Source: a bacterium
GTDB taxonomy: Bacteria; JAMCPX01
DNA: 11,418 nt
Assembly (NCBI GenBank): GCA_021789095.1
Contig: JAJYJX010000072.1
Location: forward strand, 1 to 11,418
Reading direction: 5' to 3'
The translations under genes and the position numbers were made by a program. This document shows positions 2,031 to 10,777 of this stretch, piece by piece (the stretch's first letter is position 1; every line of letters begins with the position of its first letter). The notes beneath the pieces are model-generated. The model saw only the letters and a program-made list of their open reading frames with translations. It did not search any database and had not been told where the DNA came from.

Positions 2031-2910
2031 TAAAAGAACCATTAAAAGAAAGCTAATATGTGAGGGCTATGGACTACATACTGGTGAGTTTTCAAGAATA
2101 ACAATCCATCCTGCATCAGAACAGGACGGCGTAATGTTTGTAAAAAAGATCGGGAATGCCCTGAGATACCTTCCGCTCAGCATTGATAAAGTCAAAAGCA
2201 CCATGTTTGCTACAACAATAGGAGACGACCAGTTTACTGTTTTTACTGTAGAGCACCTCTTAAGCACGCTGCACGGTTTTGGTATTGACAGTGCAATAAT
2301 AGAGATCGAAGGTGATGAAGTGCCCGGAGGAGACGGCAGCGCATTCTTATTTGCAGAAGCTATACTTGATGCAGGCATCTTCACCCTGCCTGCAAAAAAG
2401 ACAAATCTAATGCTTGAAAATGAGCTTACTGTTGAATACAACAGCGGTTTTGTAAAATATACTCCCGCAAAAACATTAACCATAGAGGGTATCATAGATT
2501 TTGATCATCCAAAAATACTAAAACAGCAATACACCTATAATAATTCTCCGGAGCACTTCTACTCCGAACTTGCGAGGGCAAGGACTTTCGGATTCTTAAA
2601 GGATTATACCACAATGCAATCTCTCGGCCTTGCAAAAGGTTCTTCACTCGAAAATACCATAGTTCTCGATGAAAAGGACGTGATGAATACAGGTGGTCTA
2701 AGGTTCCATGATGAGTTCGTCAGGCACAAGGTTCTTGACCTGCTGGGTGACCTCTACACCATGGGTAATCCTGTAAAGGGCAATATAACGAGCTATAAGA
2801 GCGGTCATGCTCTTAATCATCTTTTTGTGAAGAAGTTTACGGCTCTGCTTGAGAAAAAATCTGTAGCTGAAGAGCGGGTACTCCAGCCTGCCCTGGTATT
2901 CACGGCTTAA
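2026..2910 (+). CDS. lpxC: UDP-3-O-acyl-N-acetylglucosamine deacetylase LpxC
   Basis: The 294-residue protein is a full-length LpxC, the zinc-dependent cytosolic enzyme that removes acetate from UDP-3-O-acyl-GlcNAc, the committed step of lipid A synthesis. Key residues are visible: EGYGLHTG (13-20), the TVEHLLS motif with E76 (base) and H77 (zinc ligand), EVPGGDGSAF (98-107), ELARARTFGF (181-190), HKVLDLLGD with zinc ligands H234 and D238, and GHALNH with catalytic H261. It ends after the normal LpxC domain and is not fused to FabZ. I prefer the ATG at 2026; a TTG at 2008 would add six residues and is preceded by a stop at 2002-2004. The ribosome site is poor and the start lies in a possible hairpin. 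Other lipid A genes are not adjacent. It converges with the dehydrogenase gene 35 bases downstream; no terminator hairpin is seen there. Confidence 0.96.
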   Translation: MFKRTIKRKLICEGYGLHTGEFSRITIHPASEQDGVMFVKKIGNALRYLPLSIDKVKSTMFATTIGDDQFTVFTVEHLLSTLHGFGIDSAIIEIEGDEVPGGDGSAFLFAEAILDAGIFTLPAKKTNLMLENELTVEYNSGFVKYTPAKTLTIEGIIDFDHPKILKQQYTYNNSPEHFYSELARARTFGFLKDYTTMQSLGLAKGSSLENTIVLDEKDVMNTGGLRFHDEFVRHKVLDLLGDLYTMGNPVKGNITSYKSGHALNHLFVKKFTALLEKKSVAEERVLQPALVFTA

Positions 2911-2945
2911 CCTGTATCTTTAATCTCCCTTCGTGCATTTTCGGG

Positions 2946-4094
2946 TTAATACTGCTCTTCCACAAACCTTGTTATGATGGCTCTCTGTATCTCCGACGTG
3001 CCCTCGCCTATCTCTCCGAGTTTTGCATCCCTGTACAGCCTTTCCACCTTATAACCTTTCATGAACCCGTAGCCGCCGAAGATCTGAACAGCATCACTTG
3101 CTATCCTTGTTGCATGTTCAGATATAAAAAGTTTTGCGATCGAAGCAAACAGCATGGCCTGGGGATCTTCCCGTCCCAGCATCCATGCTGCCTTGTATAT
3201 CAGCTCCCTGGCAACATCTATGTACATCTTCATATCTGCAATCTTGAAATGGATGTCCTGAAAATAGGCAAGTTTCTTCTTAAAAGCCGTTCTCGTCTGT
3301 GCATAATTAATAGATTCTTCAAGACATGCCTGTGCAATGCCGAGGCTGTATACAGCCATGCCTATCCTGCCGTGCGTGAGTGTCTGGACCAGTTGATAAA
3401 ATCCCATATGAAGCTCGCCCAGCAGGTTTTCCCCCGGTACTGCGCAGTCATCAAAGAACAGTTCAGAAGTGGGTGAACCTCTGACACCGAGCTTGTCCAG
3501 TGGTTTGCCCCTTGAAAAGCCTTTTGTACCCTGCTCAACAAGAAACAGGCTTATGCCGTCCCTGTTCTTTTCTTTATCTGTATAAACAACAACAACATAA
3601 TAATCAGCTACAGGCCCGTTGGTTATAAAGGTTTTGGAACCGTTTATAATCCAGTCATTTCCTTTTTTCTGTGCAGATGTCTTTATCCCCAGCACGTCAG
3701 AACCTGCATCAGGCTCCGTTATTGCAAGAGCACCTATCTTGTCGCCCGCAAGGATACCCGGCAGGTATCTTTTCTTCTGTGCTTCCGTACCAAACTTCCA
3801 GACAGGCACAGCGAAAAGTCCTGCAGAAGCACCGGCTGAAAGGTATGTTGCAGCACATGCCTTTGCAAGCTCTTCGCCGAGGACTGACTTGGTTACCGGA
3901 TCACCCTGGGAGCCGCCATTCTCTTCCGGAAACCCCATGCCGAGAAACCCTGTTTTGCCGAGCAACAGGATATTTTCCTTTGGGAATATGGATTCCCTGT
4001 CAATAAGATCTGCGCGGGGTGCAATCTCCTTTACACACAGTTCTGCGAATGACTCTTTAAGCTTTTTTTGATCCTCTGTAAGTTCAAAGTCCAT
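2946..4094 (-). CDS. Acyl-CoA dehydrogenase, MCAD/SCAD-type active site
   Basis: A 382-residue, full-length acyl-CoA dehydrogenase: alpha-beta-alpha fold, FAD-bound, expected to form a tetramer and pass electrons to ETF. Signature AITEPDAGSD is at 124-133, FITNG at 156-160, and the C-terminal QIFGGYG (337-343) with YRDAKLGEIGEGTSEIQR (354-371). E364 in IGEGT sits at the position of the MCAD catalytic base (Glu376). The alternative helix-G position reads LTHGR with G242, so the base here is the MCAD type. The ATG is preceded by GGGAGG at ideal distance. It is the second gene of a pair, 22 bases after its paralogue, surely one operon. Chain-length or branched-chain specificity cannot be read off. 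No electron transfer flavoprotein genes occur in the window. Confidence 0.94.
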   Translation of the reverse strand: MDFELTEDQKKLKESFAELCVKEIAPRADLIDRESIFPKENILLLGKTGFLGMGFPEENGGSQGDPVTKSVLGEELAKACAATYLSAGASAGLFAVPVWKFGTEAQKKRYLPGILAGDKIGALAITEPDAGSDVLGIKTSAQKKGNDWIINGSKTFITNGPVADYYVVVVYTDKEKNRDGISLFLVEQGTKGFSRGKPLDKLGVRGSPTSELFFDDCAVPGENLLGELHMGFYQLVQTLTHGRIGMAVYSLGIAQACLEESINYAQTRTAFKKKLAYFQDIHFKIADMKMYIDVARELIYKAAWMLGREDPQAMLFASIAKLFISEHATRIASDAVQIFGGYGFMKGYKVERLYRDAKLGEIGEGTSEIQRAIITRFVEEQY

Positions 4095-8064: not shown

Positions 8065-8213
8065 AGAAGCTGTTAAAAAACAGCAGCGAGATACACTCAC
8101 TGTCGCAGAGGATCACGCTGCATCACGACTGGCAGTACACATTAAATACACAATCATCCTTTTACGATTCTATAGGCGGTAAATTTATTCTCGGGGACAC
8201 CGGTACCTTTAAA

Positions 8214-8534
8214 TTGATAAAGGCATTCCGCAAGATCAGGAGAGACCTGCCTTCAATACCGCTCAACCTGGCAGGTTTATTAAAAGCATGGTTTGCCTTA
8301 CCTGCCAATGAGAAAAAGGCTATAAAAGATGGTATCAGGAAAAAGGGCGATTATGTAAAGATGGATACATTTGTCTTTTCTTTTGGCGCACGGGTAAGAC
8401 TCGAGACGAACGACGGACAGAATTCCCGTAGAGAGTTACAATCCCGCCATGGTGTGCTACTGTGGTTGCACAATTACAAAGCAAACCCTGTCAGTTTTCT
8501 TCCGGGGCAAGACCAAATCTTTCTAACGGGGTAA
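8214..8534 (+). CDS. Unrecognised protein, possibly the remnant of a 5'-truncated gene
   Basis: I do not recognise this product. The frame from the TTG at 8214 gives 106 residues: a basic N-terminal part (KAFRKIRRDL), a hydrophobic stretch around LNLAGLLKAWFALP, then a Lys-rich segment and FVFSFGARVRL. The same frame is open upstream to 8064, 157 codons without a stop, although no ATG occurs before 8361 and no ribosome site supports 8214. So long an open frame is unlikely by chance, which suggests a real gene with an odd start or a gene that lost its 5' end. Its stop codon (8532-8534) lies within the AAAGGAG ribosome site of the aminotransferase, typical of a coupled operon. No membrane, signal or catalytic motif is clear. 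Confidence 0.35.
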   Translation: MIKAFRKIRRDLPSIPLNLAGLLKAWFALPANEKKAIKDGIRKKGDYVKMDTFVFSFGARVRLETNDGQNSRRELQSRHGVLLWLHNYKANPVSFLPGQDQIFLTG

Positions 8535-8546
8535 AGGAGATACCGT

Positions 8547-9794
8547 ATGGACGAACTGTCAAAGCAGGACATTATAAAGCTGTTTCACGATCATGTATCT
8601 TCCGGCAAGGCGGATATGTTTCTATCCAACGACATGGACTTCGTTTTCGGCAAAAGACAGGGCATCTACATGTGGGACCTCGATGGAGAAAAAAGGCTTA
8701 TCAACTGCCACAGCAACGGCGGTGTTTTCAATCTCGGCCATAGAAATCCGGACATTATCAATACGCTTGTATCTTCACTGGACGAGCTTGATATCGGGAA
8801 CCATCATCTCATGAGCAAATCAAGGGCGCTCCTCGCAAAAAGGCTTTCTGAGCTGATGCCCGAGGACATCACCTACACGGTCTTCGGCGTGGGCGGCGGA
8901 GAGTCGATAGACCTTGCGATCAAGATAGCGAGAGCGTACACGGGCAGGCCGAAGATCATTTCTGCAAAAGGCGGTTATCACGGGCATACCGGTTTTGCGC
9001 TTGCAGCAGGCGATGAAAAATACCGCAAGCCGTTCGGCCTGATGGCTCCCGGCTTTGTGCAGGTCCCGTTCAACGATATTGCCGCACTCGATAAGTCCAT
9101 GGATTGCGAAACCGCGGGTGTTATTTTCGAAACCATTCCCGCAACGCTCGGCATATACGTCCCTGACAGGGACTATTTTAAAAAGGTACGGGAGTTGTGC
9201 GACAGAAACGGTGCGGTTATGATCATCGACGAGGTACAGACCGGGCTTGGCAGGACAGGCAGGTTGTGGGGCATTGAGCATTTTAACGTGGCCCCGGACA
9301 TTATCGTTATCGGTAAAGGCCTGAGCGGAGGGATCTACCCCATTACGGCTACCTGCTTCAAAGAAAAACTTGAGACTGTTCTTAAGGAGGACCCGTTTAT
9401 ACATGTCTCCACCTTTGGAGGTGCCGAGGCCGGGTGCAGCATTGCATTGAAGGTGCTTGAACAATCGTCACAGCAGCCGTTTCTTGATCATGTAAACGCA
9501 ATGGCGCGGATGTTCGAACACGGGTTTGAACAATTAAAGGCACGATACTCAAAGCTCATTGTTTCGTTCAGACAGCTCGGACTGATGATGGGTGTCAAGA
9601 TGGCAAATGAGCTGTGCGGTCCGGTTATGACAAAGGCATGCTACGACAACGGCATCTTAAGCATCTATGCCAACAACGATACGTCCGTGAGCCAGCTGAT
9701 GCCGCCCTTGATTATAACAGGACAGGAGACGAGAGAGGTCCTTGAAAGGCTCGATAAGGCGTTCGGACAGGTAAACGAATTGCTTGGATTATAA
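8547..9794 (+). CDS. Class III PLP-dependent aminotransferase family enzyme
   Basis: A 415-residue fold-type I, class III aminotransferase-family enzyme (acetylornithine, ornithine, GABA and phospho-lyase relatives). Visible are GVGGGESIDLAIKIAR (114-129, cofactor phosphate loop region), GGYHGHTGFALAAGD (142-156), IIDEVQTGLGRTG (226-238, with D228 contacting the PLP nitrogen), IGKGLSGG with Schiff-base lysine K257, and HVSTFGG (286-292), the phosphate contact from the partner subunit. The cofactor site is complete, so it should be active in the cytosol. The start is fixed by AAAGGAG seven bases before the ATG. The substrate is not readable; the usual SGTEA/GSEA text of the phosphate loop is replaced by GGGES. 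It is followed after 14 bases by a kinase-like gene, so a phospho-substrate lyase or an amine-linked pathway is possible (inference). Confidence 0.92.
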   Translation: MDELSKQDIIKLFHDHVSSGKADMFLSNDMDFVFGKRQGIYMWDLDGEKRLINCHSNGGVFNLGHRNPDIINTLVSSLDELDIGNHHLMSKSRALLAKRLSELMPEDITYTVFGVGGGESIDLAIKIARAYTGRPKIISAKGGYHGHTGFALAAGDEKYRKPFGLMAPGFVQVPFNDIAALDKSMDCETAGVIFETIPATLGIYVPDRDYFKKVRELCDRNGAVMIIDEVQTGLGRTGRLWGIEHFNVAPDIIVIGKGLSGGIYPITATCFKEKLETVLKEDPFIHVSTFGGAEAGCSIALKVLEQSSQQPFLDHVNAMARMFEHGFEQLKARYSKLIVSFRQLGLMMGVKMANELCGPVMTKACYDNGILSIYANNDTSVSQLMPPLIITGQETREVLERLDKAFGQVNELLGL

Positions 9795-9808
9795 CAAAGG
9801 AGTAACGC

Positions 9809-10777
9809 ATGACCCTTGCCATTGATATCGAACTTTTAAAAAGGTTTGAAGCAGGGCTTGACATACTCCATCCGGAAAACTCTTCAATCCCTGCAAAGAT
9901 ACTCGGCTACGGAGAGATAAGTACTGTTTTCCAGCTTGAACATGAGGGACAGGAAGAGATCGCGTACAAGCGCATGCCTGTATTCGAGACGCAGGTCCAG
10001 GTGGAGCATTATCTGGCGATATACAAAGAATACAACGATATACTCAAAAATGCAGGGTTAACCATCCCTGATCATGATGCAGTGAGTATCGCGGCGGGAA
10101 AACAGGGTGCTGTTGTTTTTGCTGCACAGAAAAAGCTCGTGCCCGAATCCATTGGAAACAAGGTTATACACATCGTGCCGGACGAAGACACGGGCACGCT
10201 GGTACTCGGTGTACTGCGGCAGCTCAAAAGGGTGTGGGACTTTAATGCCGCAAACCAAGGCATAAAGATCGGCATAGACGGCCAGATATCAAACTGGGCC
10301 GTACAAAATTTTGATCCTTCCAGCCCGGCAATAAGCAGCAATCCGGAATTGTTTTATATAGATACCAGTACGCCCATGATCCGCAAAAGCGGGAAAGAGA
10401 TGCTCGAAGCCAATCTCTTTCTGAAAAGCGCGCCGTCTTTTTTACGGTGGATCGTAAAATGGTTCTTCCTTCAGGACGTGCTTGACCGGTATTATGATTT
10501 CAGGCTTGTTGTAACAGACCTTATCGCGAACTTCCATAAAGAAGGAAGACCTGATCTGATCCCGCAGCTCATTGAACTTGCAAACGGTTTTTTTGAGAAG
10601 GACGCAAAAAAGCATGGGATAAAGCCCATAGAGTTCAAAGAGGTGGAGTCTTATTACAGGCAGGATGCATTCATATGGCGTCTGTTCCTGGCACTGCGGA
10701 AGTTCGACAGGTTCTTAAAGACACGCCTCTTCATGGGCAGGTATGAATTCATCCTTCCCGGGAAGATAAAACGATAG
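9809..10777 (+). CDS. Uncharacterised protein with kinase-like (APH/protein-kinase fold) active-site motifs
   Basis: This 322-residue protein belongs to no characterised family I recognise with certainty. The order of motifs matches a kinase fold: a glycine-rich loop ILGYGEISTVF (31-41), AYK with K54 as the nucleotide lysine, an acidic helix (Q63-L79, with E67) as helix C, a catalytic loop GIDGQISNW with D157 and N162 at the D-x4-N spacing of kinases, and YIDTSTP with D185 as the metal-binding aspartate. The C-terminal half is helical with hydrophobic stretches (FLRWIVKWFFL, 211-221) but no clear membrane anchor. It may phosphorylate a small molecule, as APH-family kinases do, or be a non-catalytic relative. 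AAAGGAG precedes the ATG, and it follows the aminotransferase by 14 bases, clearly one operon. An uncharacterised DUF (perhaps DUF6206, from memory, uncertain) could be its family. Confidence 0.75.
   Translation: MTLAIDIELLKRFEAGLDILHPENSSIPAKILGYGEISTVFQLEHEGQEEIAYKRMPVFETQVQVEHYLAIYKEYNDILKNAGLTIPDHDAVSIAAGKQGAVVFAAQKKLVPESIGNKVIHIVPDEDTGTLVLGVLRQLKRVWDFNAANQGIKIGIDGQISNWAVQNFDPSSPAISSNPELFYIDTSTPMIRKSGKEMLEANLFLKSAPSFLRWIVKWFFLQDVLDRYYDFRLVVTDLIANFHKEGRPDLIPQLIELANGFFEKDAKKHGIKPIEFKEVESYYRQDAFIWRLFLALRKFDRFLKTRLFMGRYEFILPGKIKR

Follow-up and report, generated by a model that had tools for sequence, protein, structure and literature searches.

A DUF6206 protein with a predicted kinase fold and a class III PLP enzyme form a conserved gene pair that probably marks an undescribed metabolic step

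We find that a stretch of bacterial DNA of 11,418 nucleotides (hereafter the window) carries two adjacent genes, one encoding a class III PLP enzyme and the other a protein of the Pfam family DUF6206 (PF19709) with a predicted protein-kinase-like fold, and that these two proteins are functionally linked across distant phyla. The pair probably marks an undescribed metabolic step. As a tentative reading, to which we give somewhat less than an even chance, we propose that the DUF6206 kinase would phosphorylate the hydroxyl of a small amine and that the PLP enzyme would act on the same molecule, with elimination being likelier than transamination.

The gene of the PLP enzyme (8547..9794, forward strand) is complete, starts with ATG and encodes 415 amino acids, and after a spacer of 14 bases it is followed by the DUF6206 gene (9809..10777, forward strand), which also starts with ATG and encodes 322 amino acids. 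An AGGAG-type ribosome-binding site can be read from the sequence closely 5' of each gene. In the Pfam search the PLP enzyme matches Aminotran_3 (PF00202) with 267 bits at a cut-off of 30.5, and it scores under every NCBIfam equivalog cut-off shown for it. The open reading frames and the PF00202 match agree with the initial annotation, which described a complete class III PLP enzyme with a kinase-like gene 14 bases on. The same annotation placed the kinase-like protein in an unknown family, which is to be corrected, as the protein belongs to a named Pfam family of unknown function: DUF6206 is matched with 79.7 bits (cut-off 30.4) over model positions 20-271 of 271, and it is the sole Pfam match at E<=1, with no match to APH (PF01636). 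Pfam lists the function of the family as unknown, and our literature search found no paper naming DUF6206 or PF19709.

The DUF6206 protein has a glycine-rich loop (L32, G33, G35, E36 and I37), a VAIK-type lysine (K54), a catalytic aspartate (D157) with an asparagine (N162) five residues on, and a metal-binding aspartate (D185). In 40 of 40 DUF6206 homologues, with identity down to 44%, these residues show no variation, nor do R55, S161, Y183, P189 and R192, and in a wider set of homologues (n=31, identity down to 25%) G33, G35, K54, D157, N162 and D185 are invariant as well. Judged from these alignments, the invariance of the kinase motif residues is far beyond chance. The motif layout of the APH/protein-kinase fold (a glycine-rich loop, K54, D157-x4-N162 and D185), which had been read from the single sequence before, is thus borne out by the 40 homologues. 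It is also noted that in two DUF6206 genes, in L012 (genome G002, positions 2345-3307) and in L006 (1351-2313), a single in-frame TAG interrupts the otherwise intact reading frame near codon 48, which means either a damaged gene or a mistake in the assembly.

The structure of the DUF6206 protein was predicted with AlphaFold2 using seven diverse sequences, since four close ones gave a model with pLDDT of 44, which was unusable. The resulting model has pLDDT of 78.4 and pTM of 0.79, with residues 112-120 and 311-322 being poor. Its best Foldseek matches in the PDB are all kinases, namely WaaP (E 3.4e-5), AAK1, Rio2 and CK2. With VIA-align the top match is the amicoumacin kinase AmiN (Z 10.4, rmsd 5.1, 229 residues aligned), near which MEK1, WaaP and APH(2'') are tied within about 1 Z, and all 50 rows are of the kinase fold. 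A predicted structure was one of the checks proposed in the initial annotation, and only kinase-fold chains are matched by it, AmiN best. Taken together, the residues and the model support a protein-kinase-like fold for the DUF6206 protein, in which the ATP-binding and catalytic site is complete and invariant. Note that the matches of the predicted fold do not distinguish between kinds of substrate. A sequence search of solved structures with the DUF6206 kinase gave no match, a tblastn search of plasmids gave none either, and none was found in viral contigs.

The linkage of the two genes is seen in their distribution. Within this small phylum the kinase is present in 4 of 9 genomes, and in the window's own family the pair is adjacent in all 4 of the kinase-bearing genomes. 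Adjacency is also found in 6 of 6 Chloroflexota and, with 386 genomes sampled, in 12 of 13 further bacteria, with the gene order being flipped, the kinase gene coming first, in several bacteria (loci L024, L025, L085 and L087). Among 227 genomes of Asgard archaea the kinase occurs in 55 (56 in another count, roughly a quarter), the PLP enzyme in 70 and both in 50, a co-occurrence for which Fisher's test gives 5e-28, a value that counts too many events as independent, given the common descent of related genomes. In the 55 kinase-bearing Asgard genomes the pair is adjacent on one strand in 20 (including a contig-end fragment in G566), in 12 the two genes share a strand at a distance of 4-11 kb, in 19 they are widely separated or fall on separate contigs, and a PLP partner was not found in the remaining 4. 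Moreover, the distances between the partner proteins are correlated (r 0.65, with 0 of 2000 permutations as high in a Mantel test). The adjacency across genomes, which the initial annotation had proposed to examine, is therefore conserved in the four groups to these extents.

The genes around the pair vary. Among 73 flanking genes no family was seen more than three times, with no common third neighbour and no common clue to a substrate, and thus the conserved unit consists of just the two genes. Beside some pairs there are methyltransferase-related genes (MTTB, URO-D, SAM synthetase, SAH hydrolase) and genes for UbiA, GH2, sulfatase and EamA. Methyl transfer or lipid synthesis was considered as the function of the pair and was not adopted, as the candidate neighbours recur nowhere widely. 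In the Asgard islands L105-L111, where the kinase and the PLP enzyme are 4-11 kb apart on one strand, the genes between them are varying MFS_2, GH2, sulfatase, acyl-CoA-ligase-like and Fe-S genes. In three Asgard genomes (L113, L112 and L115) a gene of the UbiA prenyltransferase type is near the PLP enzyme, with the kinase elsewhere or about 4 kb off. In the locus L072 (8991-10835) the PLP enzyme and a pyridine-nucleotide/Fe-S protein are joined via a run of N, which is a scaffold gap and no fusion.

In the window itself a decayed remnant of an MmgE/PrpD-family gene (8070..8435, forward strand) lies between cstA and the pair. It was detected by tblastn with the MmgE/PrpD protein of L010, of which residues 357-478 are matched with 56% identity (1e-41), while the first 356 and the last roughly 50 residues have no match in the window. 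Directly upstream of the pair the MmgE/PrpD gene is intact (531 amino acids) in L010 and truncated by the contig end in L011, and it was not found at the other pair loci examined. The MmgE/PrpD gene is outside the conserved two-gene unit.

A member of the PLP-enzyme clade is also present on a plasmid of Mesorhizobium mediterraneum (NZ_CP088153; L117/L142), and no DUF6206 gene was found on that plasmid. Its neighbours are a phosphodiesterase, a cytidylyltransferase, a CDP-alcohol phosphatidyltransferase, a GHMP kinase and a dipeptide ABC transporter, together with an apparent fusion of an NTP-transferase and a class I-II aminotransferase, the NTP-transferase part of which is a weak match. The cluster looks like an undescribed head-group pathway, and this one locus points to phosphorylated amino alcohols.

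We then consider the place of the PLP enzyme among the class III enzymes. In a maximum-likelihood tree of 57 class III proteins, with the GenB3 and PHYKPL sequences left out, the enzyme of the window belongs to a clade on its own branch (support 100/99), the sister of which is formed by the E. coli putrescine aminotransferase PatA and a Streptomyces azoxy-cluster enzyme, with the join supported by 94/82. The phospho-lyases and their APH fusions form a separate clade (100/99) apart from that of the window. Membership of the window enzyme in the phospho-lyase clade (ETNPPL/PHYKPL) is hence rejected by the tree. The distal substrate pocket differs as well, as the position of PatA Q119 is Gln in PatA, Arg in the phospho-lyases and His in 29 of the 33 members of the window clade. 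The interpretation offered in the initial annotation consequently stands in part: the predicted fold is that of a kinase, the four residues K54, D157, N162 and D185 are kept and the adjacency is conserved, so that none of the three outcomes named there as refuting it was seen, while the PLP enzyme, for which a tree together with the phospho-lyases had been proposed as a check, falls outside their clade and beside putrescine aminotransferase. As a separate observation, L118 (NZ_CP109557) is a valanimycin-like azoxy cluster (VlmB-like protein, SerRS, DAG kinase, MmgE/PrpD) that has a class III PLP enzyme sister to PatA.

The residues of PatA, known from its structure (PMC4244111), were mapped onto the 33 members of the window-enzyme clade. 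K300, D271, Q274 and T332 of PatA are kept as K257, D228, Q231 and T289 in the window enzyme, the Schiff-base lysine K257 being present in 32 of the 33 members and D228, which faces the nitrogen of the PLP ring, in 33 of 33. T151 of PatA, in the PLP phosphate loop, is replaced by Gly in 31 of 33. The pair E243/R426 of PatA (E235/R413 of OAT) is the Glu-Arg pair used with 2-oxoglutarate by class III aminotransferases (PMC4244111), and both residues are present at these switch positions in 7 of 7 canonical class III enzymes. In the window clade the equivalent of E243 is Thr in 31 of 33 (T200 in the window enzyme), and the equivalent of R426 is never Arg, being Gln in 22, Lys in 6, Ile in 4 and Leu in 1 (Q383 in the window enzyme). 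As far as the residues allow, this active site argues against ordinary 2-oxoglutarate use. Since putrescine aminotransferase itself keeps the Glu-Arg pair, the pair was lost within the window clade. In the solved phospho-lyases 6tor and 5g4i Cys/Thr and Lys occupy the Glu-Arg positions, with our residue statements on phospho-lyases referring to these two structures and to L132, L133 and L134. The pair is also absent in BioA, in beta-alanine:pyruvate-like and spermidine-like enzymes and in HemL, and its loss therefore singles out no lyase; as a proof of lyase chemistry it was rejected, because class III enzymes of the pyruvate and SAM types are without it too. It is noted separately that the locus L102 (8956-11591) has a run of a kinase gene, two genes of clade PLP enzymes and a TPR gene, where the Schiff-base lysine of the first PLP enzyme is replaced by His, so that this protein may be a pseudoenzyme.

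Based on these data, the proposed pathway is as follows. The DUF6206 kinase would transfer phosphate to a hydroxyl group on a small amino alcohol or a similar molecule. The PLP enzyme would then form an external aldimine with the phosphorylated amine and eliminate the phosphate, giving a carbonyl compound and ammonia, for which an amino acceptor would not be needed. The substrate class, the order of the two steps and the elimination are what we infer here, elimination being favoured over transamination because the enzyme no longer has the acceptor-binding Glu-Arg pair and is partnered by a kinase. The kinase plus PLP-lyase route would have been reached independently of ETNPPL/PHYKPL. In the stronger form of the proposal, which we hold still more tentatively, there would be an undescribed pathway of bacteria and Asgard archaea in which DUF6206, as a new family of small-molecule kinases, and a class III clade that turned into a lyase independently of ETNPPL/PHYKPL would degrade or rebuild a phosphorylated amine. 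Against elimination stand the place in the tree outside the phospho-lyases, the His instead of Arg in the distal pocket, the lack of a common substrate clue among the neighbours and the non-specific nature of the Glu-Arg loss, as well as the Asgard genomes in which the two genes are apart (19 of 55) or no PLP partner was found (4 of 55).

The order of the two steps might also be the reverse, which we regard as rather unlikely and nevertheless as the most serious of the alternatives. The PLP enzyme would be a true transaminase that uses pyruvate, an amine or another partner than 2-oxoglutarate, making or using an amino polyol, and the kinase would then yield a building block, e.g. for a CDP-activated lipid head group. 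That the sister group, putrescine aminotransferase, acts on terminal amines, that pyruvate-type class III transaminases are also without the Glu-Arg pair and that the Mesorhizobium plasmid member adjoins a cytidylyltransferase, a CDP-alcohol phosphatidyltransferase and a GHMP kinase are all consistent with such an order. However, the CDP-alcohol genes are adjacent only in that one plasmid and are absent among the shared neighbour families, and putrescine aminotransferase retains the Glu-Arg pair, so the loss occurred in the window clade.

A chemistry of class III that is free of an acceptor, with the PLP enzyme being a mutase, epimerase or decarboxylase and the kinase acting before or after it, is improbable: HemL is likewise without the Glu-Arg pair, and racemases, an epimerase and an aminomutase do occur in class III, but the window clade is not near HemL in the tree and no such enzyme is known to need a kinase partner. 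Finally, that DUF6206 would be no metabolite kinase but a protein kinase or regulator (RIO/WaaP-like) controlling the PLP enzyme is the least probable. In favour of this reading, the fold matches include RIO, WaaP and protein kinases, which score level with the small-molecule kinases. Against it, amicoumacin kinase and APH(2'') are among the best matches, though with tied Z values, and it would be unusual for a regulator to stay with one enzyme of metabolism across so wide a range of organisms.

With this analysis, DUF6206, so far a family name to which no function was attached, becomes a probable kinase that has a constant partner and is present in roughly one in four Asgard genomes. The PLP partner is probably misannotated as a generic aminotransferase; the one annotated member that we found is named only 'aminotransferase class III-fold'. 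If the pair is indeed a kinase and a lyase, PLP elimination aided by a kinase would have more than one origin.

The window pair is a variation of the known logic of a kinase with a class III PLP enzyme (ETNPPL, PHYKPL, GenP/GenB3), with another kinase family and another PLP clade. PHYKPL is a further parallel, next to ETNPPL, of a kinase with a class III phospho-lyase. The precedent for a class III phospho-lyase acting with a kinase is ETNPPL (PMC8154272). Like the window pair, the ETNPPL/PHYKPL systems (6tor, 5g4i) with APH-type kinases, including the fusions of APH with class III enzymes (NCBIfam PRK06148), combine a kinase-fold protein with a class III PLP enzyme lacking the Glu-Arg switch. 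By contrast, the window PLP enzyme is in another clade and has His, not Arg, distally, and its kinase is of DUF6206 with no Pfam APH match. PatA/YgjG, of the sister branch, offers the closest solved structures by sequence and shares with the window enzyme the PLP-site residues Lys, Asp and Thr, whereas it has E243 and R426 where the latter has T200 and Q383, and the motifs 'SGTE', 'EPIQGEGG' and 'FGGNP' of PatA correspond to 'GGGE', 'ETIPATLG' and 'FGGAE'. VlmJ of valanimycin biosynthesis is of the DAG-kinase type, unlike DUF6206. It phosphorylates the serine moiety, after which the MmgE/PrpD member VlmK completes the dehydration (PMC9379638); this logic of phosphorylation followed by elimination is similar to the one proposed here, and an MmgE/PrpD gene precedes the pair in L010 and L011, with only its decayed remnant left in the window. 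In gentamicin biosynthesis the APH-fold kinase GenP phosphorylates an amino sugar and the PLP enzyme GenB3 then eliminates the phosphate (PMC7941887). GenP/GenB3 belong to an antibiotic cluster, while the window pair, for which a similar logic is proposed, is a two-gene unit in varied neighbourhoods.
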